Part shown: piece after piece, positions 1 to 44,438 of the stretch
How positions within the stretch are numbered: the first letter of the stretch is position 1
Layout of the letters: every line of letters begins with the position of its first letter
DNA from: a virus
Virus record (IMG/VR): IMGVR_UViG_3300005529_000059
Coordinates: 1-44,438 of that record
Reading direction: 5' to 3' (one strand)
DNA: 44,438 nucleotides
Translations under genes and position numbers: made by a program
The notes under the pieces: model-generated
The model's database searches: none
Seen by the model: only the letters and a program-made list of their open reading frames with translations
What the model was told of the DNA's origin: nothing

Positions 1-80
1 GTGTTAACCAATGAGGCGTCGGGAAGTGCTAATGGTGCGGCCTTCTCAATTTCCTGTAAGGACACCGTCGAGTGCGCGAT
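1..80. repeat. 80-bp terminal direct repeat (left copy)
   Basis: This segment is identical to the last 80 bases of the window (44359-44438). The tail-fibre reading frame crosses the junction without a break, so the two ends are the same locus. The simplest reading is the overlap left when a circular or circularly permuted genome is assembled; a real short terminal repeat is the alternative. Confidence 0.95.
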
Positions 81-9357: not shown

Positions 9358-9975
9358 TCACAACTTAATTTCACCGAGAATTTCACGCTTCATCGCTGCG
9401 CACTTATCGTCTTGCCACACAACTTCACCGTAGAGCGCAACAATCCAAAGACGCTCGCCGTTCCATTTGTCCGGGTTCATGGTCGCGTGAAATCCGCGAT
9501 GGCAGATACTTAGCTTGCCTGTAAGTTCTTGAACGAGTCCCGGTCGCGCAGGTTCTTTCGCAGAGCCGCCATTACTCGGCAATCCGTTCGGGTCCGATCT
9601 CCAGAAGGCAAGCGCCGTCGCGCTTGCTACTGCTTCCTTGAAGGCATTTTGCTGGTTAGCGGGCCATGATTGGATAGCGGCTTCGGCGAGTTGTGGATAC
9701 TGCAAGCCGTAGCCGTAGCCGTCGCCGGAGCCGTAGCCGTAGCCGTAGCCGTCGCCGGAGCCGGAGCCGAAGCCGTCGCCGGAGCCGGAGCCGGAGCCGA
9801 AGCCGTCGCCGGAGCCGGAGCCGTAGCCGGAGCCGTCGCCGGAGCCGGAGCCATAGCCGTCGCCGTAGCCGTAGCCGTAGCCGGAGCCGTAGCCGTCGCC
9901 GTAGCCGTAGCCGGAGAAATCAGCCATCGTCCAGTCTGGCAACTGGCCTCGGCTGATTGTCGCCTCGCAGATCAT
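9358..9975 (-). CDS. Phage protein with a 35-unit XG dipeptide repeat insert
   Basis: This is 205 residues. The ATG at 9975 is chosen because GGAGG precedes it and it overlaps the previous stop (ATGA). Residues 1-20 are ordinary. Residues 21-90 are 35 consecutive dipeptides of the form Tyr, Ser, Asp or Phe followed by Gly. The remaining 115 residues form a conserved-looking domain with LSICHRGFHATMNPDKWNGE and a following ERLWIVALYGEV block, a segment I recall from other phage early proteins of unknown function. The repeat resembles an intrinsically disordered, self-associating low-complexity region. No activity can be assigned. Confidence 0.75.
   Translation of the reverse strand: MICEATISRGQLPDWTMADFSGYGYGDGYGSGYGYGYGDGYGSGSGDGSGYGSGSGDGFGSGSGSGDGFGSGSGDGYGYGYGSGDGYGYGLQYPQLAEAAIQSWPANQQNAFKEAVASATALAFWRSDPNGLPSNGGSAKEPARPGLVQELTGKLSICHRGFHATMNPDKWNGERLWIVALYGEVVWQDDKCAAMKREILGEIKL
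9706..9915. repeat. Hexanucleotide tandem repeat, 35 units
   Basis: These are 210 bases of uninterrupted 6-base units. On the plus strand the units are gccgta, gccgtc, gccgga and gccgaa. The first four bases are invariant and the last two vary. On the coding (minus) strand they give TAC, GAC, TCC or TTC followed by GGC. Such an array can change length by slippage in six-base steps without breaking the frame. Confidence 0.97.
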
Positions 9976-19765: not shown

Positions 19766-20808
19766 TGGTGCATTAGCGTGTGCTCGCAATCAATAACTCC
19801 TCCAGTGTCCAAACATGATCTGTGATCCCGCTTGCTACCGCCGGAGTTGTGTTGATTGTCGCATGGACACGAACAAAATTGCTCCATGCGAAGTACAAGG
19901 CCACGGCATAGCGCAAGTTTTCAATCTTCTTTGAGAAGCCAAGGCACAGCCGAGTTAAGCGACGCATGAACGTCCTCATGTTGAGATTGCTGCGCTCAAC
20001 ATGAGAAGTGCAAATGTGTTCTTCGATCGGCTGGCCTGTAATGGTTTTACGGACTGCACCAATACACGCTGGGGGAGAGTAACGGCCACTGCCGCCCTCC
20101 AGATTACCTGCGTAAATCTTCTGAATCACTCCGTGATCTACGTCACCATTAAATGCTCGTCGTGTTGCAAACTGATAGGCTCCAAACGAGTCTGTACTTA
20201 CCTGCGGACGAACAACCAACCTGTCAGCCAGGTCTGCCATGAAGTGTTGGGTAGACGGCGCATTACGTTTACCGACGAGGTATGTAATAACTAACTTGGT
20301 GTGTCGGTCGATTGCAACAAACGTATAGGTGTCGCCTAATAGATCGGCATTATCGGTCGCCTTAAGGTGGCGCTGTTTCTTTCCCACGAAACCCCAAATC
20401 TCGTCACATTGAATATCTGCAAGTGCGAGATTTCGCATTCTGGAATCCATCAGCTTCTCGCACCGCTCACCAATGAGAACCAAAAGGCGTAGCACTGTGC
20501 GCTTGTTGATTCCAGCGATCCGCGCAGCTGCACGAATACCAACACCTTCTACAAGCAAATTAATAACGTGAACGGCCTTTGCGAAATCAACGCGCATTTC
20601 GTCAAGATGGCTTTCCGGTTTGTCGGACCATGTTCTACCGCATGTTAAGCAGCGATAGCGTTGAATGCGATTCTTACCGTAGGTGCCAGCACGGCGAGCC
20701 GTAGCTTGGCAAAAATGACAGGTCATTGCGGGCCTTGCCTTTCAAGAGGCGATGGCTCACAATCAAGTTGTCTAGGCTAGCTTGCGAGCAATCGCGGGTT
20801 AGTTGACC
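19761..20808. mobile_element. IS1-family insertion element (approximate ends)
   Basis: A single transposase gene fills most of this interval. TGCTCGCAA at 19781-19789 recurs inverted at 20782-20790. Outside each copy is a GCG and a terminal GGT, giving imperfect inverted ends of about 27-29 bases starting at 19761 and 20808. I find no convincing target-site duplication, so the boundaries are estimates. A strong terminator begins at 20809, immediately outside the right end. Confidence 0.6.
19773..20726 (-). CDS. IS1-family transposase (single frame)
   Basis: This is 317 residues. An N-terminal zinc finger (CHFC and CLTCGRTW) precedes an HTH (GIRAAARIAGINKRTVLRLL). The DDE catalytic domain has Asp108 (QCDEIWGFVG), Asp179 (STDSFGAY) and Glu244 (SHVERSNLNMR). 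All key residues are present, so it looks active. In classical IS1 the zinc/HTH part and the catalytic part are two frames joined by frameshifting; here they are one frame, as in the ISMhu11-like group. It runs opposite to the surrounding phage genes. Confidence 0.85.
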   Translation of the reverse strand: MTCHFCQATARRAGTYGKNRIQRYRCLTCGRTWSDKPESHLDEMRVDFAKAVHVINLLVEGVGIRAAARIAGINKRTVLRLLVLIGERCEKLMDSRMRNLALADIQCDEIWGFVGKKQRHLKATDNADLLGDTYTFVAIDRHTKLVITYLVGKRNAPSTQHFMADLADRLVVRPQVSTDSFGAYQFATRRAFNGDVDHGVIQKIYAGNLEGGSGRYSPPACIGAVRKTITGQPIEEHICTSHVERSNLNMRTFMRRLTRLCLGFSKKIENLRYAVALYFAWSNFVRVHATINTTPAVASGITDHVWTLEELLIASTR

Positions 20809-23208: not shown

Positions 23209-23375
23209 GCCCAGAGGAGATCGGATGGGAGCGGCCGTCTCGGGAGTTGGTCGAAGCCGCGAAGGCGGTCGTCGAGTTATACGACGGCGGTCAGATTGAA
23301 GCGCGGACAGGGATGATGGCGACGGTGTGGCGGGCCTTTCGGCGGTTGAGTGCGGCACTGAAGGCGGAATCGTGA
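23205..23375 (+). CDS. Hypothetical helical protein
   Basis: This is 56 residues from the ATG at 23205 with GGGAG upstream. Mostly helical (ELVEAAKAVVELYDGGQIEA). Its stop overlaps the GTG start of the radical SAM gene (GTGA), so the two are translationally coupled. Confidence 0.55.
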   Translation: MSPEEIGWERPSRELVEAAKAVVELYDGGQIEARTGMMATVWRAFRRLSAALKAES

Positions 23376-24283
23376 AGCTGTGGGATGAGTACCGGGTCTG
23401 GAAACGCGAACGGTTTCCTCGCGGGCTGCATGTGATGGGAACCACGGTGTGCAATGCGAAGTGCGCGTTCTGCCTGTATCCGTTGAAGGAACGGTCGGCT
23501 CAGGTACTGCCGATGGAGACGTTTCGGCGCGTGGTGGACGAGTTTGCGGCGTACAAGATTCCGTTTGAGATTGGATTGACGCCGGCCTTCGCCGATCCTT
23601 TGATGGACCCGTTTCTGTTGGACCGGTTGGCGTACCTGAAGATGGTGCCGCAGGTCCGGTATATCCACTTCAACACGAACTTGATTGCGGCGGAGAGGGT
23701 GGGGTTTGAACGGATTTTAAGATCAGGCGTCCACCGGATTCACGTCTCAATTGGGGGGCTGTGCCGGGAGTCGTATAAGCGATTATTCGGCGTGGATGCC
23801 TTTGACCGAGTCTTTGGAACCTTAACGGATATTCTGCGTCTGAACCGCGACCTCGGTTTCCCGGTGAAGTTCGATGCGATTGTCCGGGCGGACGAGCCAT
23901 TCGACGTCGTTTGTCAGAAACCGACATACCGACTGCTGAAGGATAGCCAACTTCAATGTAAGTTCGACCTTTCCGTTGAAAACGAGTACGACGATTGGGG
24001 CGGTCAGGTGGATCTGGCGAAGGCGAATCTGAAACAGGTGACACCGGTGCCGGTCGCAACTCGCCCGTGTTTCAATATTTACCACGCCTTGAGTCTGGAG
24101 ACGGACGGCTCCTTCTCCCTCTGTGCCTGCAAAGATGTCCGTCAAACCTCGTTGAACATCCGGGGAACTCTGAAAGACGCGCTGGATCATCGACGAGAGA
24201 CGATTGCGCGGTGGAAGGCTGGGGATATCCCGTTGATTTGCCAGCAGTGCCATGTCTATCAGGACCCCCTGTTACGAATATGA
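23372..24283 (+). CDS. Radical SAM enzyme
   Basis: This is 303 residues from a GTG that overlaps the previous stop. The iron-sulfur motif CxxxCxxC is intact at residues 27-34 (CNAKCAFC). The following TIM-barrel-like region is consistent with the family (FEIGLTPAFADPL, IHFNTNLIA, RIHVSIGG). A C-terminal Cys group (FSLCACKD, ICQQCHVY) resembles a SPASM/auxiliary cluster domain, common in enzymes that modify peptides or carbohydrates. The substrate is unknown. It is coupled to the membrane glycosyltransferase-like gene by ATGA, so the two products probably act in one pathway. Confidence 0.85.
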   Translation: MKLWDEYRVWKRERFPRGLHVMGTTVCNAKCAFCLYPLKERSAQVLPMETFRRVVDEFAAYKIPFEIGLTPAFADPLMDPFLLDRLAYLKMVPQVRYIHFNTNLIAAERVGFERILRSGVHRIHVSIGGLCRESYKRLFGVDAFDRVFGTLTDILRLNRDLGFPVKFDAIVRADEPFDVVCQKPTYRLLKDSQLQCKFDLSVENEYDDWGGQVDLAKANLKQVTPVPVATRPCFNIYHALSLETDGSFSLCACKDVRQTSLNIRGTLKDALDHRRETIARWKAGDIPLICQQCHVYQDPLLRI

Positions 24284-25932
24284 CCTTACCGATTCCGCTC
24301 GAATGGCTTCTATTTCCCGTCATGGCCCTCGCTCTCTACTGGCCCTGTCTCAATGGGGAACTGATTTACGATGACATGGACGTGGAGGCGGACTGGAAAA
24401 ATAAGCAGGGCTGGCGGGTGTGGAAAGAATCGCGCCCTCTGACCATTTTGTTATATCGCTTGACCCATAAGTGGCCTGGAACCTTACGCGGGCACCACGT
24501 GACGAACGTGCTTGTTCATTCCCTGAACGCCGTTCTCGTCGGTAAGATTGCGTCTCAGATTGGAGTCAACCCATGGATCGCAAGTCTTCTTTTTCTGGCG
24601 CACCCGTTTGCCGTGAATGCGGTAGCATACATTTCGGGCCTTGCATCCCTCCTGAGTGCATCGGCGGGGTTATTCGCTATATCCCTATCGTTGAGCGGGC
24701 ATTGGAGCATTGCACTTGCGGCAATTGCTGTCGCTGCGATGGCGAAGCCGGACGGTATCGCATTGTCCCTAACCCTACTGGCTATATCCCTCCAGACTGG
24801 CCCGCCACGCTTTGCTGAAATCCTTTCGGCCTTAATCCTCATCGGCGGTGTCGCGGGGTTCCTCTACTTCCGCAAACACTACCAGCCGGAGATCCAGGCG
24901 CGAGCCCACATCAAGGACGGATTACCCGGACCTCTTCCACAACCCGAACACGCCATGACGGTACTGACCCACACCTTGAGATTACTTCCAGCGTGGGCAT
25001 TGGGTTTGTGTATCGCGAATAAACACGGCGGCGGGATTGAAACCCGTCTTGAAGATGAAGTACTCGCGGTCCTGTCGGCCGTGGGACTCGGTGCGCTGAC
25101 GGTCATCTTTCCAGTCCCAATGAGTTTGATTCTGTTCGGCCCGTGGTTGGTCTATATTGTGTTCCGAATTCATGAACCGTTAGCGGAGTACCGTAACTAT
25201 GCAATGGTCGCAGGGTTCGCTCTGTTACTTTCTCAATCATACTGGGGACTTGTGGCTATCGGATGGTTTGCTTATCAAACGTATCGCCACGCATACATCT
25301 ACCGAACCGCATCGGCTTTTTGGACAAGTGCCTGCACTGTCGGCCTCGGGGACAAATCCAACGCCTATTATCAACTCGCGGGTGTTTACCAGATCCGTTC
25401 GTGGAAAGCGAAAGACGAAGCGGAAATGAAGATGTGGCTGGAGAAAGCCGCCAATGCCAACCGCTTTGCGATCGGGTTAAATCCGGCACTGGCCCCGGCC
25501 CGCTGTAACCTCGCCCGCGTGTTAACCGCATTCAATGAGAATGAAGCCTTATTTGAATTTGAGAAAAGCGTGATCCAGTGTCCGCACTATGAACCCTTAT
25601 GGGAAGAACTCGCGCACCTCTATCAGTCCCGTGGAGCACTGGAGAAAGCCGACCACGCCATCACGAAGGCGTTGGATCTTGCGCCATCATCCGCCTCGAT
25701 CCTGAACCGTGCAGGCATCATTCGTTATTTACGGAGACGTTTAGGCGAAGCGCGGCAGTGTTTCCGTCAAGCGGTAGAACTGGACCCGAATCCCTACTAC
25801 CGGGTGAATCTCGCAATTACCCAACGGACCATGGGAGATACCGTCAAAGCTGAAGATTTAGCCGGATTGCCGAAGAATCTCCCGGTGACGAATGATTTGA
25901 TCCCACCACAGATGCAGGAGGTTCATGCCTGA
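24280..25932 (+). CDS. TMTC-like membrane glycosyltransferase (GT-C) with TPR repeats
   Basis: This is 550 residues from the ATG overlapping the radical SAM stop. The first 370 residues contain about eight to ten hydrophobic helices. Hallmarks of TMTC/GT-C proteins are present: the DD catalytic motif in the first external loop (GELIYDDMD, residues 27-34), RPLTILLYRL, HHVTNVLVHSLNAVL and AHPFAVNAVAYISG. The C-terminal 170 residues hold about four TPR motifs (ALFEFEKSVIQCPHYEPLW, then LYQSRGALEKADHAITKALD and RRLGEARQCFRQAVELDPNP). Such proteins transfer sugars from lipid carriers outside the cytoplasm. The sugar and acceptor are unknown. Confidence 0.75.
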   Translation: MTLPIPLEWLLFPVMALALYWPCLNGELIYDDMDVEADWKNKQGWRVWKESRPLTILLYRLTHKWPGTLRGHHVTNVLVHSLNAVLVGKIASQIGVNPWIASLLFLAHPFAVNAVAYISGLASLLSASAGLFAISLSLSGHWSIALAAIAVAAMAKPDGIALSLTLLAISLQTGPPRFAEILSALILIGGVAGFLYFRKHYQPEIQARAHIKDGLPGPLPQPEHAMTVLTHTLRLLPAWALGLCIANKHGGGIETRLEDEVLAVLSAVGLGALTVIFPVPMSLILFGPWLVYIVFRIHEPLAEYRNYAMVAGFALLLSQSYWGLVAIGWFAYQTYRHAYIYRTASAFWTSACTVGLGDKSNAYYQLAGVYQIRSWKAKDEAEMKMWLEKAANANRFAIGLNPALAPARCNLARVLTAFNENEALFEFEKSVIQCPHYEPLWEELAHLYQSRGALEKADHAITKALDLAPSSASILNRAGIIRYLRRRLGEARQCFRQAVELDPNPYYRVNLAITQRTMGDTVKAEDLAGLPKNLPVTNDLIPPQMQEVHA

Positions 25933-26537
25933 TGTGGATTGTGCGCCATGCTCCGACTCAAGCCAACGATCCCGGCTCCGCTAAAGTGCGCGGCTGGCTG
26001 GATTCGCCCGTTGACGAATCCGGGTATAAACTCGCCGACGAACGCGCTCAGCACTTCATGGACATTCCCCTGCAGAGAATTCAGTACTCGCCCGTTGAAC
26101 GATCTCGTGTGATGGCGGAAGCGATTCAGATGTACTCCGGCGTTCAGACGATGGAGCCCGACTACCGGCTGATGTCGTGGAACATGGGCGACTTTCAAGG
26201 ACAGGACCTCGATGACGTGGCCGACTCGATTGACGCCTACATGAGAGAGACCCCACGGATCGCGATTCCGGGCGGGGAATCGTATGTGCAGTTTCTCTCG
26301 CGATTGCTTCCCTACATTCGGGAATCCGCCGATCAAGACGAACTCGTGTGTGTGACGCACTTCCGGGATATTGTCGCGGTCGCGGCATGGGACGCGGCGG
26401 GACGCGATGGGATTACTCAAGATCCAGACGTGCTCTCGGATATCGGACCTTATGATGACTGGCAGATTGTTCTCGTGACGCCGGACAGTTTTATTCCGAT
26501 GGTCAAAGACGCGGTGACGTCGCAGGGAGGATCGTAG
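25932..26537 (+). CDS. Histidine phosphatase (phosphoglycerate-mutase-like)
   Basis: This is 201 residues with an AGGAGG ribosome binding site and a one-base stop/start overlap (TGATG). The catalytic RHAPT motif is near the N-terminus (residues 5-9). The second Arg is in YSPVERSR, a Glu in PGGESYVQF, and the second His in VCVTHFRDI, so all four catalytic positions appear present. It removes phosphate from a small molecule or protein. In this cluster it may process sugar phosphates or a phosphorylated intermediate; that is inference from context. Confidence 0.8.
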   Translation: MWIVRHAPTQANDPGSAKVRGWLDSPVDESGYKLADERAQHFMDIPLQRIQYSPVERSRVMAEAIQMYSGVQTMEPDYRLMSWNMGDFQGQDLDDVADSIDAYMRETPRIAIPGGESYVQFLSRLLPYIRESADQDELVCVTHFRDIVAVAAWDAAGRDGITQDPDVLSDIGPYDDWQIVLVTPDSFIPMVKDAVTSQGGS

Positions 26538-27111: not shown

Positions 27112-27342
27112 ATGCCTGCAAAGTCTCAAGCCCAACAAATCGCAATGGCGATTGCGGAGCATGATCCATCCAAACTCTATAAGCGCAATCAGGGAATGCT
27201 TCAGATGTCGCATGAGCAATTGCATGATTTTGCCGCGACCAAACGCGCTGGATTGCCAACCACCAAGACCGGCATCGCGGCCGGAGTCACGAGACGAAAA
27301 GCCGCAGCCGCGAAGGCACCGAAAGCCCCGAAAGGCTACTGA
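27112..27342 (+). CDS. Small basic protein at the head of the late block
   Basis: This is 76 residues with a GGAG ribosome binding site. It starts MPAKSQAQQIAMAIAEHDPS, a pattern shared by small phage and bacterial basic proteins of unknown role (DUF3008-like). The C-terminus is an Ala/Lys/Pro-rich tail (RRKAAAAKAPKAPKG) that could bind DNA. It overlaps the next gene (TGATG). Confidence 0.6.
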   Translation: MPAKSQAQQIAMAIAEHDPSKLYKRNQGMLQMSHEQLHDFAATKRAGLPTTKTGIAAGVTRRKAAAAKAPKAPKGY

Positions 27343-27797
27343 TGCTCTCCACAAAAACCGTTCTCTTATCGTCCTCGGTCAGTCGCACGACCTCTTCCAC
27401 TGAAACCAACTATGCGATCCTCCCGGCTCCCGCGCAGGGCGCGGACATCCTTTTGAATGTCACCTCGCTGACGGGAACAGGGGCCACGGTGATTGTTGTC
27501 ATTCAGAAGGGATGGCGCGATCTCGCCAATACCGACTCCACCGTAGGAATCGAAACGACAGGGAATATCAATTGGGTGGACCAATGGGCATTCACGAGCG
27601 TGAACACATCCACTGGGTCCCGGCAGCTTTCCTTGGGAACGACCGGTAATTCCGAAACGGCATGGAAACAGGACGCGATTGCCTCGAATACCCAGAATGC
27701 CGGACCTCTCGGGGATATGTTCCGGGTTGCGTGGATCATCTCGGGAGCCTTTTCGCCGACAGCGAGTTTCAGCGTAGTCGGGAAGTTCTATTACTAG
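27342..27797 (+). CDS. Beta-rich virion protein, similar in plan to the 38649 gene
   Basis: This is 151 residues, Thr/Ser/Ala-rich with alternating strands. A block ILLNVTSLTGTGATVIVVIQ, then GWRDLANTDST and FSVVGKFYY at the end, parallels the 38649 protein (IILDVTALATTGFNWGAVTL, then WYAAYRF and FAVWGIF). Both look like one beta-sandwich domain used on the capsid or tail. Function inferred from position and fold. Confidence 0.65.
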   Translation: MLSTKTVLLSSSVSRTTSSTETNYAILPAPAQGADILLNVTSLTGTGATVIVVIQKGWRDLANTDSTVGIETTGNINWVDQWAFTSVNTSTGSRQLSLGTTGNSETAWKQDAIASNTQNAGPLGDMFRVAWIISGAFSPTASFSVVGKFYY

Positions 27798-28154
27798 ATG
27801 AGCGACAAGTATTACCAGCTTCCGAACTATTCCCTCTCGGATGTGTGGAAAGCGTCTTCATCCACGAGTGACACCTCAGATCATCAGCTCCAGGCCGCTC
27901 CCGGAGCGGGCCGTGTGCTCTGGATTACCAAACTCACGGTGACGAATCGGTCGGCCGTCAACACGATGATGACGTTTAAAAACGGCGCGGGCGGGTCAAC
28001 GGTCTGGCAAACCCCCATGCCGGCCAACGGGGGCGCGGTGGAACCGTTTCCCACGCCCATTGATGTGGCGGCGAATACGGCGCTCTATTTCGCCGCTTCG
28101 GACAATGCTGCGACTTTGTACGTATCGGCGGCGGGATTCACCACGAGCGTTTAG
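27798..28154 (+). CDS. Beta-rich virion protein
   Basis: This is 118 residues, starting directly after the previous stop. The pattern VLWITKLTVTNRSAVNTMMT, then LYFAASDNAATLYVSAAGFT resembles small jelly-roll virion decoration proteins. No specific family is recognised. Confidence 0.65.
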   Translation: MSDKYYQLPNYSLSDVWKASSSTSDTSDHQLQAAPGAGRVLWITKLTVTNRSAVNTMMTFKNGAGGSTVWQTPMPANGGAVEPFPTPIDVAANTALYFAASDNAATLYVSAAGFTTSV

Positions 28155-28162
28155 GAGGCTTT

Positions 28163-28486
28163 ATGGCATTTACTGCGAAATATTCGGATCTCGCCACTTT
28201 GGTTCAATCGAGCGTGTTTCAATCCCGCGTAACAGGAGCGGTCGCGAACTATGCGAAGTACCTGTTGGGTAACGCTGGTTCAACCCTGGATCAGATCAAT
28301 TGGGCGAAGCAGGCCGTCTACAATCCTGGCGCGTCCGCTTCCCAGCTCTATTGGCAGGCTGCTCTCGACCCGGCGTTCTCCAGCGAGTCTGCGTCTCCGA
28401 TTGATCCCAGCGCGGCTAATGTTTCGGATGCTGCGCTCGATACCGTCGTACAGACAGCGATCAACAACTCTCTTCTGAAGTTCTGA
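28163..28486 (+). CDS. Small virion-region protein, paralogue of the 1020 gene
   Basis: This is 107 residues with GGAGG upstream. It shares its layout with the protein at 1020-1337: N-terminal FQSRVTGAVANYAKYLLG, a WAKQAVYNPG segment, and a C-terminal DAALDTVVQTAINN helix. No known family is recognised. Two copies far apart suggest a structural role at two virion positions. Confidence 0.7.
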   Translation: MAFTAKYSDLATLVQSSVFQSRVTGAVANYAKYLLGNAGSTLDQINWAKQAVYNPGASASQLYWQAALDPAFSSESASPIDPSAANVSDAALDTVVQTAINNSLLKF

Positions 28487-28487
28487 C

Positions 28488-29519
28488 ATGGCTGTTGCCT
28501 ACGATAACTCCGCCACTATTGACGGATTTGGAATCGCCACCTTGACTACCGGTTCCTTCACCATCGGCTCCGGCGCTAATCGCGCTGCTCTTTTGGGACT
28601 TGGAATCTACAGTGCGACGGCGAGCGCGATTTCCGGTACGTGCGCGGGGACATCGGGCAGCATCATCACCGGAACTACAGAACAGGCGCTCAGCATGACG
28701 AGCATCCTGATTGGAGTGACGGCTCCAGCATCGGGGTCCAAGACGGCCCATGCTCAATGGACAACATCGGCCTCGGCGTCTCTCGGTGTGATTACCGCGA
28801 CAGGCGTCAATCAAACCACGCCATTCAACAACGGTACAGCAAACAGTACGGGAACCGGAAGCTGCAGCGTGACCGTGACCAGCAATAGCGGAGATTTAAC
28901 GTCAACGGTCGGCATCAACTCGGGAGCGGGCTCGAATCAAACAACCAATCAGACCAAGAAAACGACCGATTTTGCCTGTATGGATATCGGCCCCGGAACT
29001 GGCAGTACAACTCATACATGGACTGGAACCTCGAACAATAACGTTTCGGGGGCGAACTTTGCTCAGGTGTCATCGAATAGCGGTGCGCTGTTTCGCCAGA
29101 CTCCGATGACGGGATTAGGGGTCGGCGGTCCATTCTTTTCAGATCCTATGGCGACGTCCGGCAGATTCAAGCATCGTCAGTATTTGAGACGCGCTTTCGC
29201 TTCCGATATTCACCGCTTGATTGTTGGCATCGACCGAGAACACCTCACGGATCTGTCGCTGGAATTTGAGATCCAGATTTACGTTTCCGATTATGCCGAC
29301 GGGGATTGGCTATTCTACGGCGCGGCCGGAAATCAGGGACGCCGATTATCCGACCGGTACTTAAAAACAGGTCTGATTTACCATCACATCCCTGACGAGG
29401 TTCGATATTTGACCGCCGTTCTGTGGTCGAACCGGCTAATCCATACACGATGTTTTGTTGAAGCCGATCAATCTATTGTCCTGCCCAATAAGCGTATTTT
29501 CATGCCGAGGGCCGCATGA
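28488..29519 (+). CDS. Virion protein with Thr/Ser-rich beta domain
   Basis: This is 343 residues. The first 200 are Thr/Ser/Gly-rich with an Ig-like or jelly-roll alternation (ATLTTGSFTIGSGANRAALL, SVTVTSNSGDLTSTVGIN). The last 140 differ in composition: charged and globular (RAFASDIHRLIVGIDREHLT, YLKTGLIYHHIPDEVRYLTA). The two halves may be separate domains brought together by fusion. Probably an exposed virion protein. The end overlaps the glycosyltransferase start by four bases. Confidence 0.6.
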   Translation: MAVAYDNSATIDGFGIATLTTGSFTIGSGANRAALLGLGIYSATASAISGTCAGTSGSIITGTTEQALSMTSILIGVTAPASGSKTAHAQWTTSASASLGVITATGVNQTTPFNNGTANSTGTGSCSVTVTSNSGDLTSTVGINSGAGSNQTTNQTKKTTDFACMDIGPGTGSTTHTWTGTSNNNVSGANFAQVSSNSGALFRQTPMTGLGVGGPFFSDPMATSGRFKHRQYLRRAFASDIHRLIVGIDREHLTDLSLEFEIQIYVSDYADGDWLFYGAAGNQGRRLSDRYLKTGLIYHHIPDEVRYLTAVLWSNRLIHTRCFVEADQSIVLPNKRIFMPRAA

Positions 29520-30232
29520 ACCTTTTCATTGCGAATGTCTCGTACAACAACACGTTTCAGAATCTGAGTGCTCAACTACGAGCGCACCGGACTCCGGGTG
29601 TCGAGCAGATTCATCATTTTGAGTTGGCGTCGTCGCTCTTAACGTGGAGTTTCAATACGGCATGGGTCCATGCCTTGAACCTTCGGAAGTCGGCCGGCAT
29701 CACACACTTCCTCCTCTGGCACTCGGACGTGCAGCCGATGGGCGAGGACTGGTTGAGGGTGTTTCTCGATGAGTTCGAGAGTAATGAAGCGGATGTGCTG
29801 AGCGCGATTATCCCGATCAAGGATTCACGCGGGCTCACGTCAACGGCTCTCGACACGGATGAGTGGAGGCCGAAACGGATCACAACTCACGAAGCGAACG
29901 AAGTTCTCCCGGTATCGTGGACGAACGAACTCCTTCTCATCAACAGTGGCTTGATGCTGTGCGACTTCACAAAGCCATGGGTTGAAAAAATTTGCTTCAC
30001 GATGCGGGATGAGATTGTTCAACAGCCGGACGGGGAATGGGTGGTTCGCTGTGAGCCGGAGGATTGGAACTTCTCACGGCAGTGTCGGCGTCTCGGCTTG
30101 AAACTCGTCGCCACACGAGCGGTGACCGTGCAGCATCACGGCGCAGGGTGCTGGAGTTCCGCGAGTGTCTGGGGCGATCCGATCGATAAGCAAAATGAAT
30201 TTGCGACGGAAAAGGTCTTGATCGATGGCTAA
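29516..30232 (+). CDS. GT-A-type glycosyltransferase
   Basis: This is 238 residues, coupled to the upstream gene (ATGA). A Rossmann-like start leads to FLLWHSDVQP (residues 66-74), whose SDV acts like the metal-binding DxD region of family-2-type enzymes. Then come DVLSAIIPI, LINSGLMLCD and the late EPEDWNFSRQCRRLG block (residues 180-194), with VQHHG at about 205-209, the usual acceptor-base and metal-ligand end. It transfers a sugar from an activated nucleotide. Lying among virion genes, it may glycosylate a virion protein or host surface component. Confidence 0.7.
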   Translation: MNLFIANVSYNNTFQNLSAQLRAHRTPGVEQIHHFELASSLLTWSFNTAWVHALNLRKSAGITHFLLWHSDVQPMGEDWLRVFLDEFESNEADVLSAIIPIKDSRGLTSTALDTDEWRPKRITTHEANEVLPVSWTNELLLINSGLMLCDFTKPWVEKICFTMRDEIVQQPDGEWVVRCEPEDWNFSRQCRRLGLKLVATRAVTVQHHGAGCWSSASVWGDPIDKQNEFATEKVLIDG

Positions 30233-31601
30233 GGATGAAGTTGTTCGTGCGTCTACCGGCGTCATGCTGGACGTGTTTGTCCAGAATGCCGGGGCCACGA
30301 ACGGCGCGGGTCTGACCGGACTAACTCAGGCATCGAGCGGTCTGACCTGTTACTACCACGTCGATAATTCGAACACATCCGTTGCGATGACATTGGTGAC
30401 GGCGACACTCGGAACGTTCACCGCCAATGGGTTCATTGTCGTGGACGGTACGAATATGCCGGGGATGTATCAGTTGATGCCGCCAAATGCCGCATTCTCC
30501 AACACCACGGCACGCCGCGTAACCTTCTACCTCCAAGGTGTTACGAACATGGCTCCGTGTGTCCTGGAAATCGCGCTGAAAGGCGTGGATACCCAAGATG
30601 CGGTTCATGGCGGAATGTCATCTCTGCCGAACACCGCAGTCACGACAAACGCATCCCTTATTACGAGTGGAACCTCTACGGATCAACTCAGCGTGAGTGG
30701 CGGGAGAGGCAAAGCCGACGTCAGTTACTGGAATGGCACAGTCGTATCGACGCCAGCAACGGCGGGAATCCCCGACATCAACGTTAAGAACATCAATAAT
30801 GTGGCTGCGACGTCCGTCACGACCATCAACGCGAACCTCGGCACAACTCAAGCGATTACATTCGACGGGAACAATTATCAGAAAGTGGACCTTGTTGATA
30901 TTGCGGGATCTGCCGTGTCGGCATCATCGGCGCAACTCGGTGTGAACGTGGTGAATATTGCCGGACATGCGGCCACTTTAGACGCGAACAATCTGTTGCA
31001 AGTGGATCTTGTGGATATTGCCGGTTCGGCGGTCTCAACGTCATCAGCTCAACTTGGAGTCCAGGTCGTCAGCATTGAGGCAGCGGCCTACGACGCCAAT
31101 TTCAGTACAGCAATCGGGAACGGTATCGAAACCGTTTTAGCAATCGACGGTTCAGGAGAAGTCACAGTCGGAACGAACAACGACAAGACAGGCTACTCCA
31201 TTGGTACGGGAGGCATCGCGAGCAGTTCATTTGCGGCCGGAGCTGTAGACAGTTCCGCCTTCGCGCAAGGAGCAGCCGATAAGGCGTGGTCCACAGCAAC
31301 CCGGACCCTGACAAGTACGGGAGGCGTGTTCCGTCTCGCAAAGAATACCGCGCTCGCCAACTTCCCCTTCTTGATGACGGATTCCACCACGCACGCCCCG
31401 AAAACCGGATTAACGGTAACGGCAACGCGGCGTATCGATAACGGCAGTTTCGCCAGTTGTGCCAACTCCGCGAGCGAAATCGCAAACGGGTGGTACACGA
31501 TCAATTTGGCCGCGAGTGATTTGAACGGCGACACCATCGCGTTTCGGTTTACCGGAACGAATGCGGATGATCTCGACTTCACCGTGGTGACGCAGCCATG
31601 A
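30225..31601 (+). CDS. Large beta-repeat virion protein (tail/baseplate-like)
   Basis: This is 458 residues, overlapping the glycosyltransferase end by eight bases. An N-terminal domain to about residue 125 resembles baseplate upper-protein folds. The middle carries two copies of VDLVDIAGSAVS(A/T)SSAQLGV (around residues 222-245 and 261-284). A C-terminal domain covers about 355-458 (TGGVFRLAKNTALANFPFLM). Rich in Asn, Thr, Ser and Val, low in charge. Probably a tail spike or fibre component; the repeats suggest an elongated trimer. No enzyme motif. Confidence 0.6.
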   Translation: MAKDEVVRASTGVMLDVFVQNAGATNGAGLTGLTQASSGLTCYYHVDNSNTSVAMTLVTATLGTFTANGFIVVDGTNMPGMYQLMPPNAAFSNTTARRVTFYLQGVTNMAPCVLEIALKGVDTQDAVHGGMSSLPNTAVTTNASLITSGTSTDQLSVSGGRGKADVSYWNGTVVSTPATAGIPDINVKNINNVAATSVTTINANLGTTQAITFDGNNYQKVDLVDIAGSAVSASSAQLGVNVVNIAGHAATLDANNLLQVDLVDIAGSAVSTSSAQLGVQVVSIEAAAYDANFSTAIGNGIETVLAIDGSGEVTVGTNNDKTGYSIGTGGIASSSFAAGAVDSSAFAQGAADKAWSTATRTLTSTGGVFRLAKNTALANFPFLMTDSTTHAPKTGLTVTATRRIDNGSFASCANSASEIANGWYTINLAASDLNGDTIAFRFTGTNADDLDFTVVTQP

Positions 31602-31750: not shown

Positions 31751-32013
31751 TCTGGATATTCATTTTCCTCCTGTTGATTGCCAATAACGCGATCTGGGTA
31801 TGGTTCTGGCGAGAATCCAAGGTTCAGACCGCCATTGAACCCACCGCGCTCGAAAAACGGGCGGCGGCGTTAGTGGCTTTCGAGGAAAAGCGGTCGCCTG
31901 ATGCCAGCGGGGAATTCAAGCGTCATCGGGTACTCGCGAAACTCATGGACGAATTTCCGCAAGCGGCTAAGCGCGATATTTCCGCAGCGATTGAGAAAGG
32001 ATTGCCCGAATGA
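31747..32013 (+). CDS. Small membrane protein next to terminase
   Basis: This is 88 residues. One N-terminal transmembrane helix (IWIFIFLLLIANNAIWVWFW) is followed by a charged cytoplasmic part ending HRVLAKLMDEFPQAAKRDIS, then AAIEKGLPE. The C-terminal pattern (helix, EFP, basic, AAIE) recalls phage holins of the LLH type, so this could be a second holin or a membrane anchor. It overlaps the terminase gene by four bases. Confidence 0.55.
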   Translation: MIWIFIFLLLIANNAIWVWFWRESKVQTAIEPTALEKRAAALVAFEEKRSPDASGEFKRHRVLAKLMDEFPQAAKRDISAAIEKGLPE

Positions 32014-33695
32014 CCGTGGCAGTCGAGACCCAGCAAACGCAAGTTCTTGAGAGCATCTTCCGCGTGAGACAGAAAGCCCGCACGGATCTGATGTTTTTGA
32101 TGAAAGCGTTACTTGGGTATAAGGACGTCAATCAGGAAGTTCACGGGCCGATCCTCTCGAAACTCCAGCAGTTCAAGGGTGGAACGGACAAACTCGGACC
32201 CAATGGTCAGATCGATTACGCTCCGTTCGTCGATAAGTGGAGACTCGAAGGCAAACGCTCGCGGTTAATTCTCGATCCTCGCGGTCATCTCAAAACCACT
32301 ATCATTTCCATTTCGCACGATATCCAGTGGATTTTAAACTATCCCGACATCCGCATCCTGATTACCACGGCCACCGGGGATCTGTCCGAGAAAGTACTGC
32401 GCGAACTCAAAGGACATTTTCAGTTTAACGAGCGGTTCCGCTATTACTTCCCGGACTTCTGTCCGCCGGCCAAACGGGCGGGCGACTTCGGCAACATGGA
32501 ATCGTTTACGGTTCCGAATCGTAAACGTGTCGCAAAGGAACCGACCGTATCGACATCGTCTATCGGAAAATCCGTCACTGGCTCTCACTTTGAAATCCTC
32601 GATTGCTGCGACATGGTGGACGAACAGAACTCCGCAACACCGGGAGGTATCCGTTCCGTCATCGATCACTTCGCGCACATGGACCCGCTCTTGGAACGTT
32701 CGGAGATTCCGCCCCATACCGGCTGGGTGAACATGGAAGGAACGCGGTACGACTTCGGCGACCTCTACGGGACGATCATCGACGCGCAAGAACAAACCCC
32801 GGAAAGCGAGAAGTGGGAAATCTCGATCAGAGACGCGGAAGTGGATGAAGCGACCGAGACAACCCTGTGGCCGTCCCGGTATCCGTGGCGCGTCCTGAAG
32901 GCCATGGAGGCCCGCATGGGTCCGCAGATTTACTCCGCACAGATGAGGAATAGACCGATTCCTGCCAGCGGTGGACTCGCGACATTGGAAGACCTCATCG
33001 GCATTTGGCGCTCGCGTTCGGACGTCAACACCCTCATTCCCGCGTTGAATCTGCACTGCACGGTAGACCTTGCGGCGATGGATCAGAAGAAAGCGGGAGG
33101 GGATTACATCGTCCTAACGGTCGCGGGGTTCACCCGTGAAGGCAAAATGGTGGTGGTCGATATCCGCAGAGGTCACTTCAATGAAACGGAAGTCATCGAC
33201 CAATTCTACTACCTTGCCCGACTCTACCCCGGCATTCTTGATTTTAAAGTGGAACGTGAAGCGTACTGGCGCACGCTTGCGCCTTTCCTTAAACGGGAAC
33301 AGTTCAAGCGCGGATTCCTGCCGCCTATTATTGATCTCCAGCGGGACAACCAGAAATCCAAACAGCAGCGGATTCAAGGATTGCAGCCGTGGTTCAAAGC
33401 GAAATTGATTTCGTTTGCGGCGGATCTTCCCTGTAGAACCGATCTCTTTCAGGAAATCACGCGCTTTCCGTCACAGTCGGTTCATGACGACATCCTGGAC
33501 ACGTTAGCGGATCAATTGCAGAACCGTGAAGGCGGCGTCAACTATGACGTGGTACCGGCACCGTGGTCACCGAAGATCGGCGACCCGGCGCCGGAAGATC
33601 GGTTCTTGGAATTTGATCCGTTTTCACACGAGGCGCAGTTCCTTCTCCAGCAGATCGGTGCGGGAGATTCGAATTACGACTGTAACGGCATATGA
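32010..33695 (+). CDS. terL: Terminase large subunit
   Basis: This is 561 residues. The ATPase half has a deviant Walker A, DPRGHLKTT (residues 89-97), as in T7-like terminases, and a Walker B-like hydrophobic-acidic stretch HFEILDCCDMVDEQ (193-206). The nuclease half has the RNase H-type first Asp at 353 (CTVDLAAMD), another at 365 (GGDYIVLT), and a late HDDILDTLADQL motif near residue 495. It pumps DNA into the prohead and cuts it. The portal gene follows with a four-base overlap. Confidence 0.9.
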   Translation: MTVAVETQQTQVLESIFRVRQKARTDLMFLMKALLGYKDVNQEVHGPILSKLQQFKGGTDKLGPNGQIDYAPFVDKWRLEGKRSRLILDPRGHLKTTIISISHDIQWILNYPDIRILITTATGDLSEKVLRELKGHFQFNERFRYYFPDFCPPAKRAGDFGNMESFTVPNRKRVAKEPTVSTSSIGKSVTGSHFEILDCCDMVDEQNSATPGGIRSVIDHFAHMDPLLERSEIPPHTGWVNMEGTRYDFGDLYGTIIDAQEQTPESEKWEISIRDAEVDEATETTLWPSRYPWRVLKAMEARMGPQIYSAQMRNRPIPASGGLATLEDLIGIWRSRSDVNTLIPALNLHCTVDLAAMDQKKAGGDYIVLTVAGFTREGKMVVVDIRRGHFNETEVIDQFYYLARLYPGILDFKVEREAYWRTLAPFLKREQFKRGFLPPIIDLQRDNQKSKQQRIQGLQPWFKAKLISFAADLPCRTDLFQEITRFPSQSVHDDILDTLADQLQNREGGVNYDVVPAPWSPKIGDPAPEDRFLEFDPFSHEAQFLLQQIGAGDSNYDCNGI

Positions 33696-35713
33696 GCACC
33701 GTACTTGACCAAGCCTTAGCCAGTATGCCGCTCACTGGAGCGGAACAGCAGATCAAAGAACCCACCGATCCGTGGACCGATGACATGGCTTGCAAAATCG
33801 CCGTGCAGGACTTCCTTGCGGCCGAACGCTACCGGAGCCAGAACCATGATTGGCGCTATCGGGTCTCGGATGAACTCTACCTCGCATGGGTTGCGCAGAA
33901 GTATTGGGAAGGCACGAAGATTCCACGAGCCTCGATTCCCGTGTTTCTCGCGTTTCAACAAGTCGAATCGCTTCTACCGAAACTCATGTCGGCGATCTTC
34001 TCGGACAATCCGTGGTTTGATGGCGAACCCGGACTCGGCGTTGCGGTCGAGATCATGCGGCAGTTCCGGGATAAGGTCCGCAATCAGCTTGATGATGCGC
34101 AAGTAAGAGAAACCTTCCGGCGAGCGATCAAAAGCGCGTTGATCTATGGAAACGGGATTACGGAACTCTCGTGGGTGTCACAGAAAAACAAGTCGCTGAA
34201 GTATGTCCCGACATGGAAGTTTCCTCAGCAACAACAAGGGAATGTTGTTAACTTCGCGAAAGCGAAACGAGTCTTGGAAAAGCGCGAGACGGAAGAGATT
34301 GAAAACCGTCCGGTCCTGAGCAACATTTCCATCAAAGATTTCTACTTCGATCCGAACGCGACCTCGCCGGTCATTCAAGATCCGTCCCACGGTTATGTGT
34401 GTATTCGGGTTTATAAAACGATTCAATTCCTCGACAGCCTGAGAGAAAACAAAGAATTCACGATTCCGAGTAAAGATGAACTCGCGAAAATGGCCCAACA
34501 GCGGCCGAGTGCCCAATCGGACACGACCAAATCCGTTGTCGAACTCATGAGATTCGGCTATTGGGCACCGCAGAACGATCAGACGAGCGATCCGGCCGGC
34601 AAACGGATCGAGTTAATTTCACGGGTCTCGAAAGACCGTGTCGTGTGGGTTCTCAATCGGACGAAGACGATTCTGAACAAGCCCAATCCGTATGGATTCA
34701 TCAACTATTACGATGCGTTCTACGCGGATGTCCCCGACAGAGCCTACGGCATGTCGATGTGCGATGTATTGGAAGGCGAGCAGCGGTTTAAAACTTCGCT
34801 GATTAATGCAAGAGTCGACGAACTCGCGCTCTCGATTCACGCGCCGGTCCAGTACAAACGGGGACTGAACATCCCGTCGTATCAACTGCGCACCCGTCCG
34901 GGTCAAATGATCCAAGTGGAGACACCGGGAGAGGATTACGTCCGCACCGAAATGGGCGGCATTACCCAGAATGCGTACATCGAAGACCAAGCCTCGGAAG
35001 CGCGGGCGCAGAAGATCACGGGACTTTCCGACCTTATTGCAAACGGTATGGGACAGGAGGGCGGCAACTCGGCATCCCGAACAGCTACGGGTATTGGCGC
35101 ACAGGTCCAGGCGGGGAGTTCCCGTATCCAGGGCTTACTGGAAACCTTGGAAGATACCTACATCGAACCGATTCTGAACGACACTGTTAAACTGAACATC
35201 CTCTTCCCGCCGTTGGGCACGAATGCCGCGCAGATTCAACAACTGCAGAACGTGAAACTTTACATGCGAGCCTCGGCCCGAATGAAGTCGCAGATGACGT
35301 TATTGCAGACGTTACCGCTCGTCCTTCAATCGATCCTGAATCCGGCGTTGATAACCCAAATGGGACAACAGGGAATCGGTCTGAACTGGAAAGAAATCAT
35401 GACGATGATTCTGGACACGACGGGATTCCAGAACCGGGCCGATTTGATCCGCAAGTTAACTCCTCAGGAAATCCAGCAGATGCAACAGCAGATGCAGGCG
35501 GAGGCGCAATTGAAAATGCAGATGCAGCAACAGCGGTTGCAGAGTCAACAGCAGCAGACCGACGCGAAACTGCAGCACTCGACACAGTTGGAGCAAATGA
35601 AACTCGACGGCAAACACGATATTGAAGAGACGAAAGGTAAACATGCGCTGGCGGCGGCACTCATCCCGACCATGATTGAACACGCCTTAGCGGGGAGTAC
35701 TTCTTCCGAATGA
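33692..35713 (+). CDS. Portal protein
   Basis: This is 673 residues, typical for podovirus portals. The N-terminal region fits the family (WRYRVSDELYLAWVAQKYWE, then FLAFQQVESLLPKLMSAIF). The middle contains the stem/crown-like region and TASRTATGIGAQVQAGSSRI, a signature-like segment of this portal type. The C-terminal 90 residues are Gln/Met-rich helices (IQQMQQQMQAEAQLKMQMQQ), a barrel-like extension. It forms the dodecameric DNA channel at one capsid vertex. Coupled to terminase and the following gene by ATGA overlaps. Confidence 0.85.
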   Translation: MSTVLDQALASMPLTGAEQQIKEPTDPWTDDMACKIAVQDFLAAERYRSQNHDWRYRVSDELYLAWVAQKYWEGTKIPRASIPVFLAFQQVESLLPKLMSAIFSDNPWFDGEPGLGVAVEIMRQFRDKVRNQLDDAQVRETFRRAIKSALIYGNGITELSWVSQKNKSLKYVPTWKFPQQQQGNVVNFAKAKRVLEKRETEEIENRPVLSNISIKDFYFDPNATSPVIQDPSHGYVCIRVYKTIQFLDSLRENKEFTIPSKDELAKMAQQRPSAQSDTTKSVVELMRFGYWAPQNDQTSDPAGKRIELISRVSKDRVVWVLNRTKTILNKPNPYGFINYYDAFYADVPDRAYGMSMCDVLEGEQRFKTSLINARVDELALSIHAPVQYKRGLNIPSYQLRTRPGQMIQVETPGEDYVRTEMGGITQNAYIEDQASEARAQKITGLSDLIANGMGQEGGNSASRTATGIGAQVQAGSSRIQGLLETLEDTYIEPILNDTVKLNILFPPLGTNAAQIQQLQNVKLYMRASARMKSQMTLLQTLPLVLQSILNPALITQMGQQGIGLNWKEIMTMILDTTGFQNRADLIRKLTPQEIQQMQQQMQAEAQLKMQMQQQRLQSQQQQTDAKLQHSTQLEQMKLDGKHDIEETKGKHALAAALIPTMIEHALAGSTSSE

Positions 35714-43043: not shown

Positions 43044-44438
43044 TGTCTTCCAGAAAATTCCGATTAGTGGTGTCGGTCCCGACCCTTCGATGAGTTCCGG
43101 TCCAGCCGGAGCGACACTCAACAGCGATAACAACCAAGTCTTGCAGTTGATCGAGCAGGCCACAACCACGTCACAGACTCCGCAGAATCAACCCGCGTCG
43201 AACACAATAGCTGGAGATTCCGCATCTTCAACCGGAAGCGGTGCAACCACGGTCGGGCAATTGGCGCAGACGCAGGGCGGCAATACCGTCACGGTGGGCC
43301 AGAACACGATTTCCGCTTTAGGAGAAAGTGTAGTGGTTGGGGCGGCGGCATCGAGTGGCGGCGGCAACGATGTGGTGATTGGGTATCTGGGTTCGTCCGG
43401 TACAGGCGGAAATAATACCGTCATCGGCACAGCAGCATCTGCGAGAAACGGTGGTACGCAATTCAATGTGGCAGTCGGGGCGGCGGCGTACGCCACCGGT
43501 GGTACATCAACAGCGATTGGCGCTGCAGCGAATGCGGCCGGGTCCAACGGCCTCGCAGTTGGGGCAGCGTCTATCAGTGGCAGCGGTTCTAACAATACGG
43601 TTGTCGGTGAAGGTTCATCCATTGGCTCTGGCCTCAGCAATTGCACGATTGAAGGACAAGGAGTAGCAATTACCGGAGGAGGAAGTTCTACTGCTGTCGG
43701 ACAGAGTGTCACGATCGGTGCTGGAAATGATGTGGCGATCGGCCAGGGTGTCACAACAGGAACTGGTTCCAAGAATACGGTCATCGGGGCGACCGCTTCA
43801 ACCGCTACCGGAAACACAACGATGAATGTGGCGATCGGATACGGTGCCGCTGCATCGGGAAACAATGACGTCACAATTGGCGCTTCCGCATTGACGGGGA
43901 CAGGAGGGGCAAACGTCTCGATTGGTCACAGTGCGACCACTTCGGGATCTGCTCATGCTGTTGCGGTCGGGGATTCCTCCTCCGCAGGAGCCACGTTTGA
44001 CGTTGCAATCGGCTCAGGGGCGTCCACGGGACTAGGTGGAAGCAACACCATTATCGGTAAAGGGACCGCTTGTACTGGCAACGCTAGCAATAACGTTGTC
44101 GTTGGCCTTGGCTCATCGGCATCTGGCGGCAATAACACTGTTGTTGGTCAGGGCTCGTCTGTTTCAGGCGCAAACTCGACGGCGATCGGCACGGGGCATT
44201 CCATTACGCATTCGAATAACTGCGCTATTGGAACTGGTGTCACATCAATTGCGAACAATATGCTGATTTTCAGTGCTGATGGGGTGGCAATTCCGTCCAT
44301 TAATCCAGGCGGCGGTGGCGTTCTTATCAATCATGCCAACAGCGATTACACCTACATCGTGTTAACCAATGAGGCGTCGGGAAGTGCTAATGGTGCGGCC
44401 TTCTCAATTTCCTGTAAGGACACCGTCGAGTGCGCGAT
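43033..44438 (+). CDS. Tail fibre with YadA-like head repeats, N-terminal part (3' partial)
   Basis: This begins at ATG 43033, overlapping the previous gene by 11 bases; no stop occurs before the window edge, and the frame joins base 1 (full length about 624 residues). Residues 1-60 are a likely tail-attachment domain. From about residue 75 to 405 run some twenty repeats of about 14 residues of the form NTVVGxGSSxSGxNSxAIGx, the left-handed beta-roll of trimeric autotransporter heads (YadA/Hep_Hag). A transition (SADGVAIPSINPGGGG) leads to the tip encoded at 1-549. The gene is the probable host-range determinant. Confidence 0.8.
   Translation, partial: MPVDVFQKIPISGVGPDPSMSSGPAGATLNSDNNQVLQLIEQATTTSQTPQNQPASNTIAGDSASSTGSGATTVGQLAQTQGGNTVTVGQNTISALGESVVVGAAASSGGGNDVVIGYLGSSGTGGNNTVIGTAASARNGGTQFNVAVGAAAYATGGTSTAIGAAANAAGSNGLAVGAASISGSGSNNTVVGEGSSIGSGLSNCTIEGQGVAITGGGSSTAVGQSVTIGAGNDVAIGQGVTTGTGSKNTVIGATASTATGNTTMNVAIGYGAAASGNNDVTIGASALTGTGGANVSIGHSATTSGSAHAVAVGDSSSAGATFDVAIGSGASTGLGGSNTIIGKGTACTGNASNNVVVGLGSSASGGNNTVVGQGSSVSGANSTAIGTGHSITHSNNCAIGTGVTSIANNMLIFSADGVAIPSINPGGGGVLINHANSDYTYIVLTNEASGSANGAAFSISCKDTVECA
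44359..44438. repeat. 80-bp terminal direct repeat (right copy)
   Basis: This is identical to bases 1-80 and lies inside the tail-fibre coding sequence in the same frame. It is the join of a circular map. Confidence 0.95.

Follow-up and report, generated by a model that had tools for sequence, protein, structure and literature searches.

A gene coding for a GT-C-fold protein with C-terminal TPRs was found in the complete genome of an uncultured phage, and related genes were detected in several other phage contigs. By analogy with the Gtr conversion enzymes, the product is probably a polyprenyl-phosphate-sugar-dependent, periplasm-facing glycosyltransferase by which a tailed phage would modify the envelope of its host. 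The window, that is the whole stretch of DNA analysed (44,438 nucleotides), is one whole IMG/VR record (IMGVR_UViG_3300005529_000059), and its main features are as follows:

1-80 (+): terminal direct repeat, copy 1, an exact 80-nt match to 44359-44438
23327-24283 (+): radical SAM ORF (PF04055, 5.4e-9), with an ATGA overlap with the GT-C start
24280-25932 (+): 550-aa glycosyltransferase of the GT-C fold; its membrane domain covers roughly residues 1-340 and is followed by C-terminal TPRs at about 344-527
25932-26537 (+): histidine phosphatase superfamily protein, alpha-ribazole phosphatase/PGM-like (PF00300, 2.3e-21)
32010-33695 (+): terminase large subunit (TerL, PHROG 38, E=1.7e-60)
33692-35713 (+): portal protein (PHROG 1216, E=3.4e-26)
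44359-44438 (+): terminal direct repeat, copy 2, an exact copy of 1-80

The contig is a complete phage genome which closes circularly at about 44,358 bp. The terminal repeat, the terminase, the portal and a head-closure-like protein (Hc3), all encoded in the same record, confirmed that the locus belongs to a phage and not to a host segment. In addition, a cell-wall hydrolase gene and a weak capsid match were found, and distant relatives of the terminase occur in cyanophages, for example in Pf-WMP3 (about 27%). The GT-C gene is internal to the genome, away from the contig edges, and is followed downstream by Ser/Thr-rich ORFs and the terminase. For the radical SAM, GT-C and phosphatase genes, GC content (0.54-0.57) and GC3 fall within or close to the range seen in the structural genes.

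Three further observations were made in this genome. An IS1-like transposase ORF is located inside it (19773-20726, minus strand); assignment of a host through this ORF failed, the best matches in Nitrospirota being just 45-50% identical. The ORF at 29516-30232 (plus strand) shows GT-A glycosyltransferase-like features (WHSDVQP, PEDWNFSRQ, HHG) and is a candidate from its sequence alone, with no Pfam, NCBIfam or phage match. A long array of 6-nt-based repeats (GCCGTA/GCCGGA) at 9675-9958 is probably part of a minus-strand coding region.

The ORF at 24280-25932 is real, with 550 uninterrupted codons. All the blocks read by the first-pass annotation were present in its translation: YDD at 30-32, SRPLT at 51-55, H73..N76VLVHSLNA and AHPFAVNAVAYISG at 107-120. 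These blocks are not due to chance, since they coincide with conserved family columns in 58 bacterial relatives: H73 and N76 were each found in 56/58, H108 in 57/58 and P109 in 58/58, and P53, H80, E/D303 and Y307 are conserved as well. The motif codons are:

24370-24375 (+): D31-D32, first outer loop, family columns 56/58 and 58/58, respectively
24433-24444 (+): R52-P53-L54-T55 (RPLT), part of TMTC motif M2
24601-24639 (+): H108-G120 (HPFAVNAVAYISG), after which the RxD of TMTC motif M3 is absent (L121, S123)
24745-24747 (+): K156, the conserved lysine of TMTC motif M4, 56/58
25186-25200 (+): E303-Y304-R305-N306-Y307, a rearranged TMTC motif M7 (ERxxY), common to the phage relatives L094 and L095

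The pair D31-D32, for which the first-pass annotation had asked whether it aligns with the catalytic acids, falls on the near-invariant acidic pair of the family and corresponds in alignment to the acidic residues that are catalytic/metal-binding in GT-C enzymes, motif M1 of PMC7801869. About four TPRs had also been predicted, in agreement with a Pfam TPR_2 match (3.8e-10) in the 550-aa protein; the Pfam scan gave TPRs only, without any other domain. TPR proteins in the PDB match the window protein starting at residue 387 or 395, and in the full-length structure model the TPR helices span residues 344 to 527, directly after the membrane domain. A PHROGs profile search gave no match for the protein, and zero matches were obtained among the 50,697 sequenced phage records of INPHARED, in keeping with the earlier remark that no well described phage example was known.

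When the full-length model was submitted to Foldseek, the list was filled by TPR proteins, and therefore the membrane domain was modelled alone (AlphaFold, residues 1-380, family sequences as input, no templates, pLDDT 80.6). Comparison of this model with the PDB using VIA-align 2 gave 43 entries at Z 10.3-18.6, every one with a GT-C fold, followed by a drop to Z 4.0 in the next row, which upheld the proposed fold: GT-C is the sole class above Z 10. The top structural matches were STT3, AglB, PglB, Pmt1/2, Pmt4, ArnT, ALG and Emb/Aft proteins. Foldseek with the membrane domain was weak, with no E-value below 0.04 and mostly the same top families, and when PDB sequences were searched with the family profile (hmmsearch), the matches were to TPRs and not to GT-C enzymes. 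The structural case is thus based on VIA-align 2, the motifs and homology, not on Foldseek E-values, and the identification as a GT-C/TPR protein is right. Since PIG-U, a non-enzyme, is also among the structural matches of the membrane domain, a GT-C fold alone is no proof of activity. The membrane helices number eleven, which is odd, so the TPRs would lie on the same membrane side as the DD loop, predicted to be the outer (periplasmic) one with the N-terminus taken as inside. Outer loop 4 is short, poorly aligned and modelled with a pLDDT under 50.

Seven motifs have been described in human TMTCs (PMC7801869). The window protein has the acidic residue in the first outer loop expected throughout the GT-C superfamily (D31-D32) together with the 11 membrane helices and C-terminal TPRs of TMTCs, and it keeps M1 (DD), the RP of M2, the K of M4 and the E and Y of M7, as well as H73/N76/H80 and HP. 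Of M3 in outer loop 2, the RxD is absent, L121-A122-S123 standing in its place; in M4 (KE(T/Q)xxT) K156 is kept and the glutamate is replaced by P157; and in M7 (ERxxY) E303 and Y307 are kept, with the arginine moved by one residue to 305 (EYRNY). The DW of M5 was not recognisable in the window protein, where outer loop 4 aligns poorly and the model confidence is low. DUF1736 (PF08409) gave no match in the window protein, a model that no control genome matched either; the Pfam models PMT and PMT_2 were likewise unmatched by the protein. Of the TMTC-type assignment made in the first-pass annotation, the TMTC-like GT-C plus TPR architecture therefore stands and strict TMTC membership does not: judged by its sequence, the window protein is a TMTC-like GT-C/TPR protein and not a TMTC by strict markers, because M3, the M4 glutamate and a DUF1736 match are missing and M7 reads E-Y-R-x-Y.

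According to PMC7801869, prokaryotes also have full-length TMTC homologues. When only the GT-C membrane part was used as query, a motif-led search yielded 56 relatives from bacteria, spread over Planctomycetota, Verrucomicrobiota, Gemmatimonadota, Myxococcota, Omnitrophota, Nitrospirota and other phyla. To guide the patterns, the search alignment included one fragment composed from background knowledge as a consensus of the motif region in bacteria, and the relatives were confirmed with the window protein itself. A match was present in 24/246 genomes of Nitrospirota (the phylum of L047) and in 68/237 of Omnitrophota (the phylum of L019). TPRs follow the membrane domain in 35 of the 40 aligned relatives, and 12 of the 40 match PMT_2. 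Relatives with the same predicted architecture, a homologous membrane domain followed by TPRs, are thus widespread in bacteria. The branch of the window protein is long (3.43 against a median of 0.66 in one tree, and 1.77 against 1.04 in the tree including phage relatives).

Within the IMG/VR viral contigs, scans with single proteins (GT-C, terminase, radical SAM) gave nothing, as did early profile scans, and relatives were found only with profiles that focused on the motifs and had a bacterial or phage relative as lead sequence. For this reason the early null scans say little and the viral count is a lower bound. The firm phage cases are:

L087: a 438-aa relative immediately upstream of the terminase small and large subunits
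L088: a 479-aa relative, with an exonuclease and a Bet-like annealing protein encoded nearby
L089: membrane and TPR parts as separate ORFs, near head-closure Hc3
L094: a relative read in two frames on a 54 kb contig, where a weak match to terminase lies some 2.4 kb further downstream
L095-L097: a single phage present in three samples, with TerL and portal on the contig (L095 contig 46.6 kb)

At L089 555-2008 the GT-C membrane part and the membrane/TPR part are two adjacent overlapping ORFs, the TPR part coming first. The two frames of L094 reflect either an assembly error or inactivation, and they were joined with an X between them for the tree. A less certain case is L093, in which the two proteins tested had no PHROG match. 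L098 and L099 are possibly host or provirus-edge sequence and were excluded from the firm cases. A glycan-type cluster (aminotransferase-like, several family-2-like glycosyltransferases, epimerase-like, radical SAM) occupies L099 131-11167 with the GT-C gene last; it adjoins opposite-strand phage-like genes and may be phage or provirus-edge host DNA.

The best full-length relative of the window protein is a phage gene. The tree contained a phage-only clade which joined the window protein with L094 (99/94) and then with L095 (99/97), support values to be read in the light of many long branches. E-Y-R-x-Y is common to these three proteins, and the L094 contig and the window phage have two other genes in common (48% and 39%). 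Loss of RxD was considered as a signature of all phage copies and rejected, as L094 retains R; its KE is also retained. Since the phage label requires at least five changes on the tree, phages appear to have acquired this enzyme family more than once, or to have exchanged it with hosts. This recurrence makes the finding somewhat stronger than the first-pass annotation had stated.

The GT-C gene is flanked by two overlapping neighbours. The likely true start of the radical SAM ORF is a GTG at 23372, which overlaps an upstream stop, and the GT-C stop lies in a TGATG overlap with the histidine-phosphatase ORF, which is preceded by an AGGAGG. Because of the ATGA and TGATG overlaps and this AGGAGG, the three genes look translationally coupled. 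A dedicated modification system had been suggested from the lytic-region location and the tight coupling to the radical SAM gene; the other contigs did not support it, as both this gene and the phosphatase are missing from L094 and L095, the closest phage relatives, and the three-gene order was not conserved among the environmental phage contigs tested. PF04055 had no match in the L094, L095, L088, L089, L093 and L098 contigs and only a sub-threshold stretch in L087, and the phosphatase was found in the window only among the records tested. A strong PF04055 match occurs in L099, where a radical SAM gene overlaps the GT-C start, with at most marginal similarity to that of the window (BLASTP E=0.006 over 75 residues). 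Given that PF04055 and the phosphatase are mostly absent from the other contigs, the three-gene arrangement is particular to the window phage among the contigs tested, and co-function, though possible, is without support from conservation. In L087 (155-1279) a radical SAM-like stretch of the PHROG 9298 type is joined to a cytosine-5 DNA methylase in one ORF; being dissimilar to the radical SAM protein of the window, it was discarded as support.

In the role proposed here, the 11-helix domain would be inserted in the inner membrane of the host, and both the loop that carries DD and the TPRs would project into the periplasm. The sugar would be taken from a lipid-linked (polyprenyl-phosphate) donor, presumably supplied by the host, since a search of the phage for a family-2 glycosyltransferase found none: gtrB-like PF00535 had no match within the window and matched in all 14 control genomes, and no donor-making genes were found in the phage. 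It would then be passed to an envelope acceptor recruited or held by the TPRs, and the surface of the infected cell would be changed so that, for example, superinfection is blocked or progeny are kept off debris. The Gtr enzymes provide a precedent for phage-encoded periplasmic glucosylation (PMC2629481). Against an active enzyme are the missing R and D of RxD, the displaced M7 arginine, the replaced M4 glutamate, the short outer loop 4 with its low model confidence and the long branch. The motif changes, the long branch and the existence of non-enzymes with a GT-C fold, such as PIG-U (PMC7801869), would fit a protein without catalysis that binds or blocks a partner in host glycosylation; this appears unlikely, as DD, K156 and E303 are kept, R and KE are still present in L094, and the E-Y-R-x-Y common to a phage clade suggests constraint over decay.

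GT-C active sites face the periplasm or the ER lumen, and the virions of tailed phages assemble in the cytoplasm. For this reason an acceptor in the host envelope is likelier than a virion protein: phage structural proteins, for instance the Ser/Thr/Gly-rich products of 27342-31601, would not meet a periplasm-facing active site. Their glycosylation by the enzyme together with the radical SAM protein would agree with the position of the gene upstream of the Ser/Thr-rich ORFs and the terminase, with the packaging or structural genes also adjoining it in L087 and L095, and with the possible extra sugar transferase at 29516-30232, but the radical SAM gene is missing from the closest phage relatives and this reading is improbable. 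It is very improbable that the radical SAM, GT-C and phosphatase genes are a recently picked-up host segment carried without a role in infection. All three are of cellular type and mutually overlapping, and the genome carries the IS1-like transposase gene; this reading is opposed by their phage-like base composition, by the phage gene that is the best full-length relative and by the phage-only clade. Envelope modification in the manner of Gtr remains the preferred role. A bolder version, in which phages keep their own TMTC-like lineage, marked by the rearranged lipid-phosphate motif E-Y-R-x-Y, as protein O-glycosyltransferases for proteins of the host periplasm or surface that the TPRs select, would be a strategy undescribed before and is offered as a doubtful suggestion.

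Envelope modification by phages, described for Gtr and acetyltransferase cassettes, would be extended by the window protein to a TPR-bearing type of enzyme. The bacterial members of the family are common in uncultured phyla and are without biochemical characterisation in the literature searched, and its animal members take part in O-mannosylation; being small (438-550 aa), the phage versions could serve as tractable models. The several phage contigs provide a clear gene set with which to ask if a phage glycosyltransferase is directed to protein acceptors by its TPRs.

With the eukaryotic TMTC1-4 O-mannosyltransferases, the window protein has in common the 11 membrane helices, the DD in the first outer loop and the C-terminal TPRs; it differs in the unmatched DUF1736, the lost M3 and the only partial M4 and M7, and M5 was not recognisable in the poorly aligned outer loop 4. 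The likeness is one of sequence and fold, mannose and a protein acceptor being traits of the TMTCs. PMT (GT39), ArnT and STT3/PglB have the GT-C fold in common with it (Z 15.6-18.6), but at 5-12% identity in structure alignments and all without a TPR tail, and Pmt carries a MIR domain. The closest likeness is to the prokaryotic GT-C plus TPR proteins, which are homologous across the membrane domain and have the DD, RP, H..N...H, HP, K and (D/E)xxxY motifs with TPRs directly after it. From these the window protein, at about 20-25% identity in the alignment, differs in being phage-borne, in the loss of RxD, in the change of ERxxY to EYRxY and in a shorter outer loop 4.

GtrC proteins of seroconversion cassettes are phage-encoded glucosyltransferases with multiple membrane helices that have long been known (PMC2629481). 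The window protein resembles these conversion enzymes (GtrII, GtrV, GtrX) as a phage-encoded multi-helix membrane glycosyltransferase in an operon setting and, as proposed here, in the periplasmic use of a polyprenyl-linked sugar; it differs in having no sequence match to any Gtr family and in its TPR tail. A literature search, made largely without subscription journals, brought up nothing on TMTC-like proteins of phages. As Gtr enzymes have long been known, it is the TPR-bearing, TMTC-like version alone that is new to phages within the literature searched.
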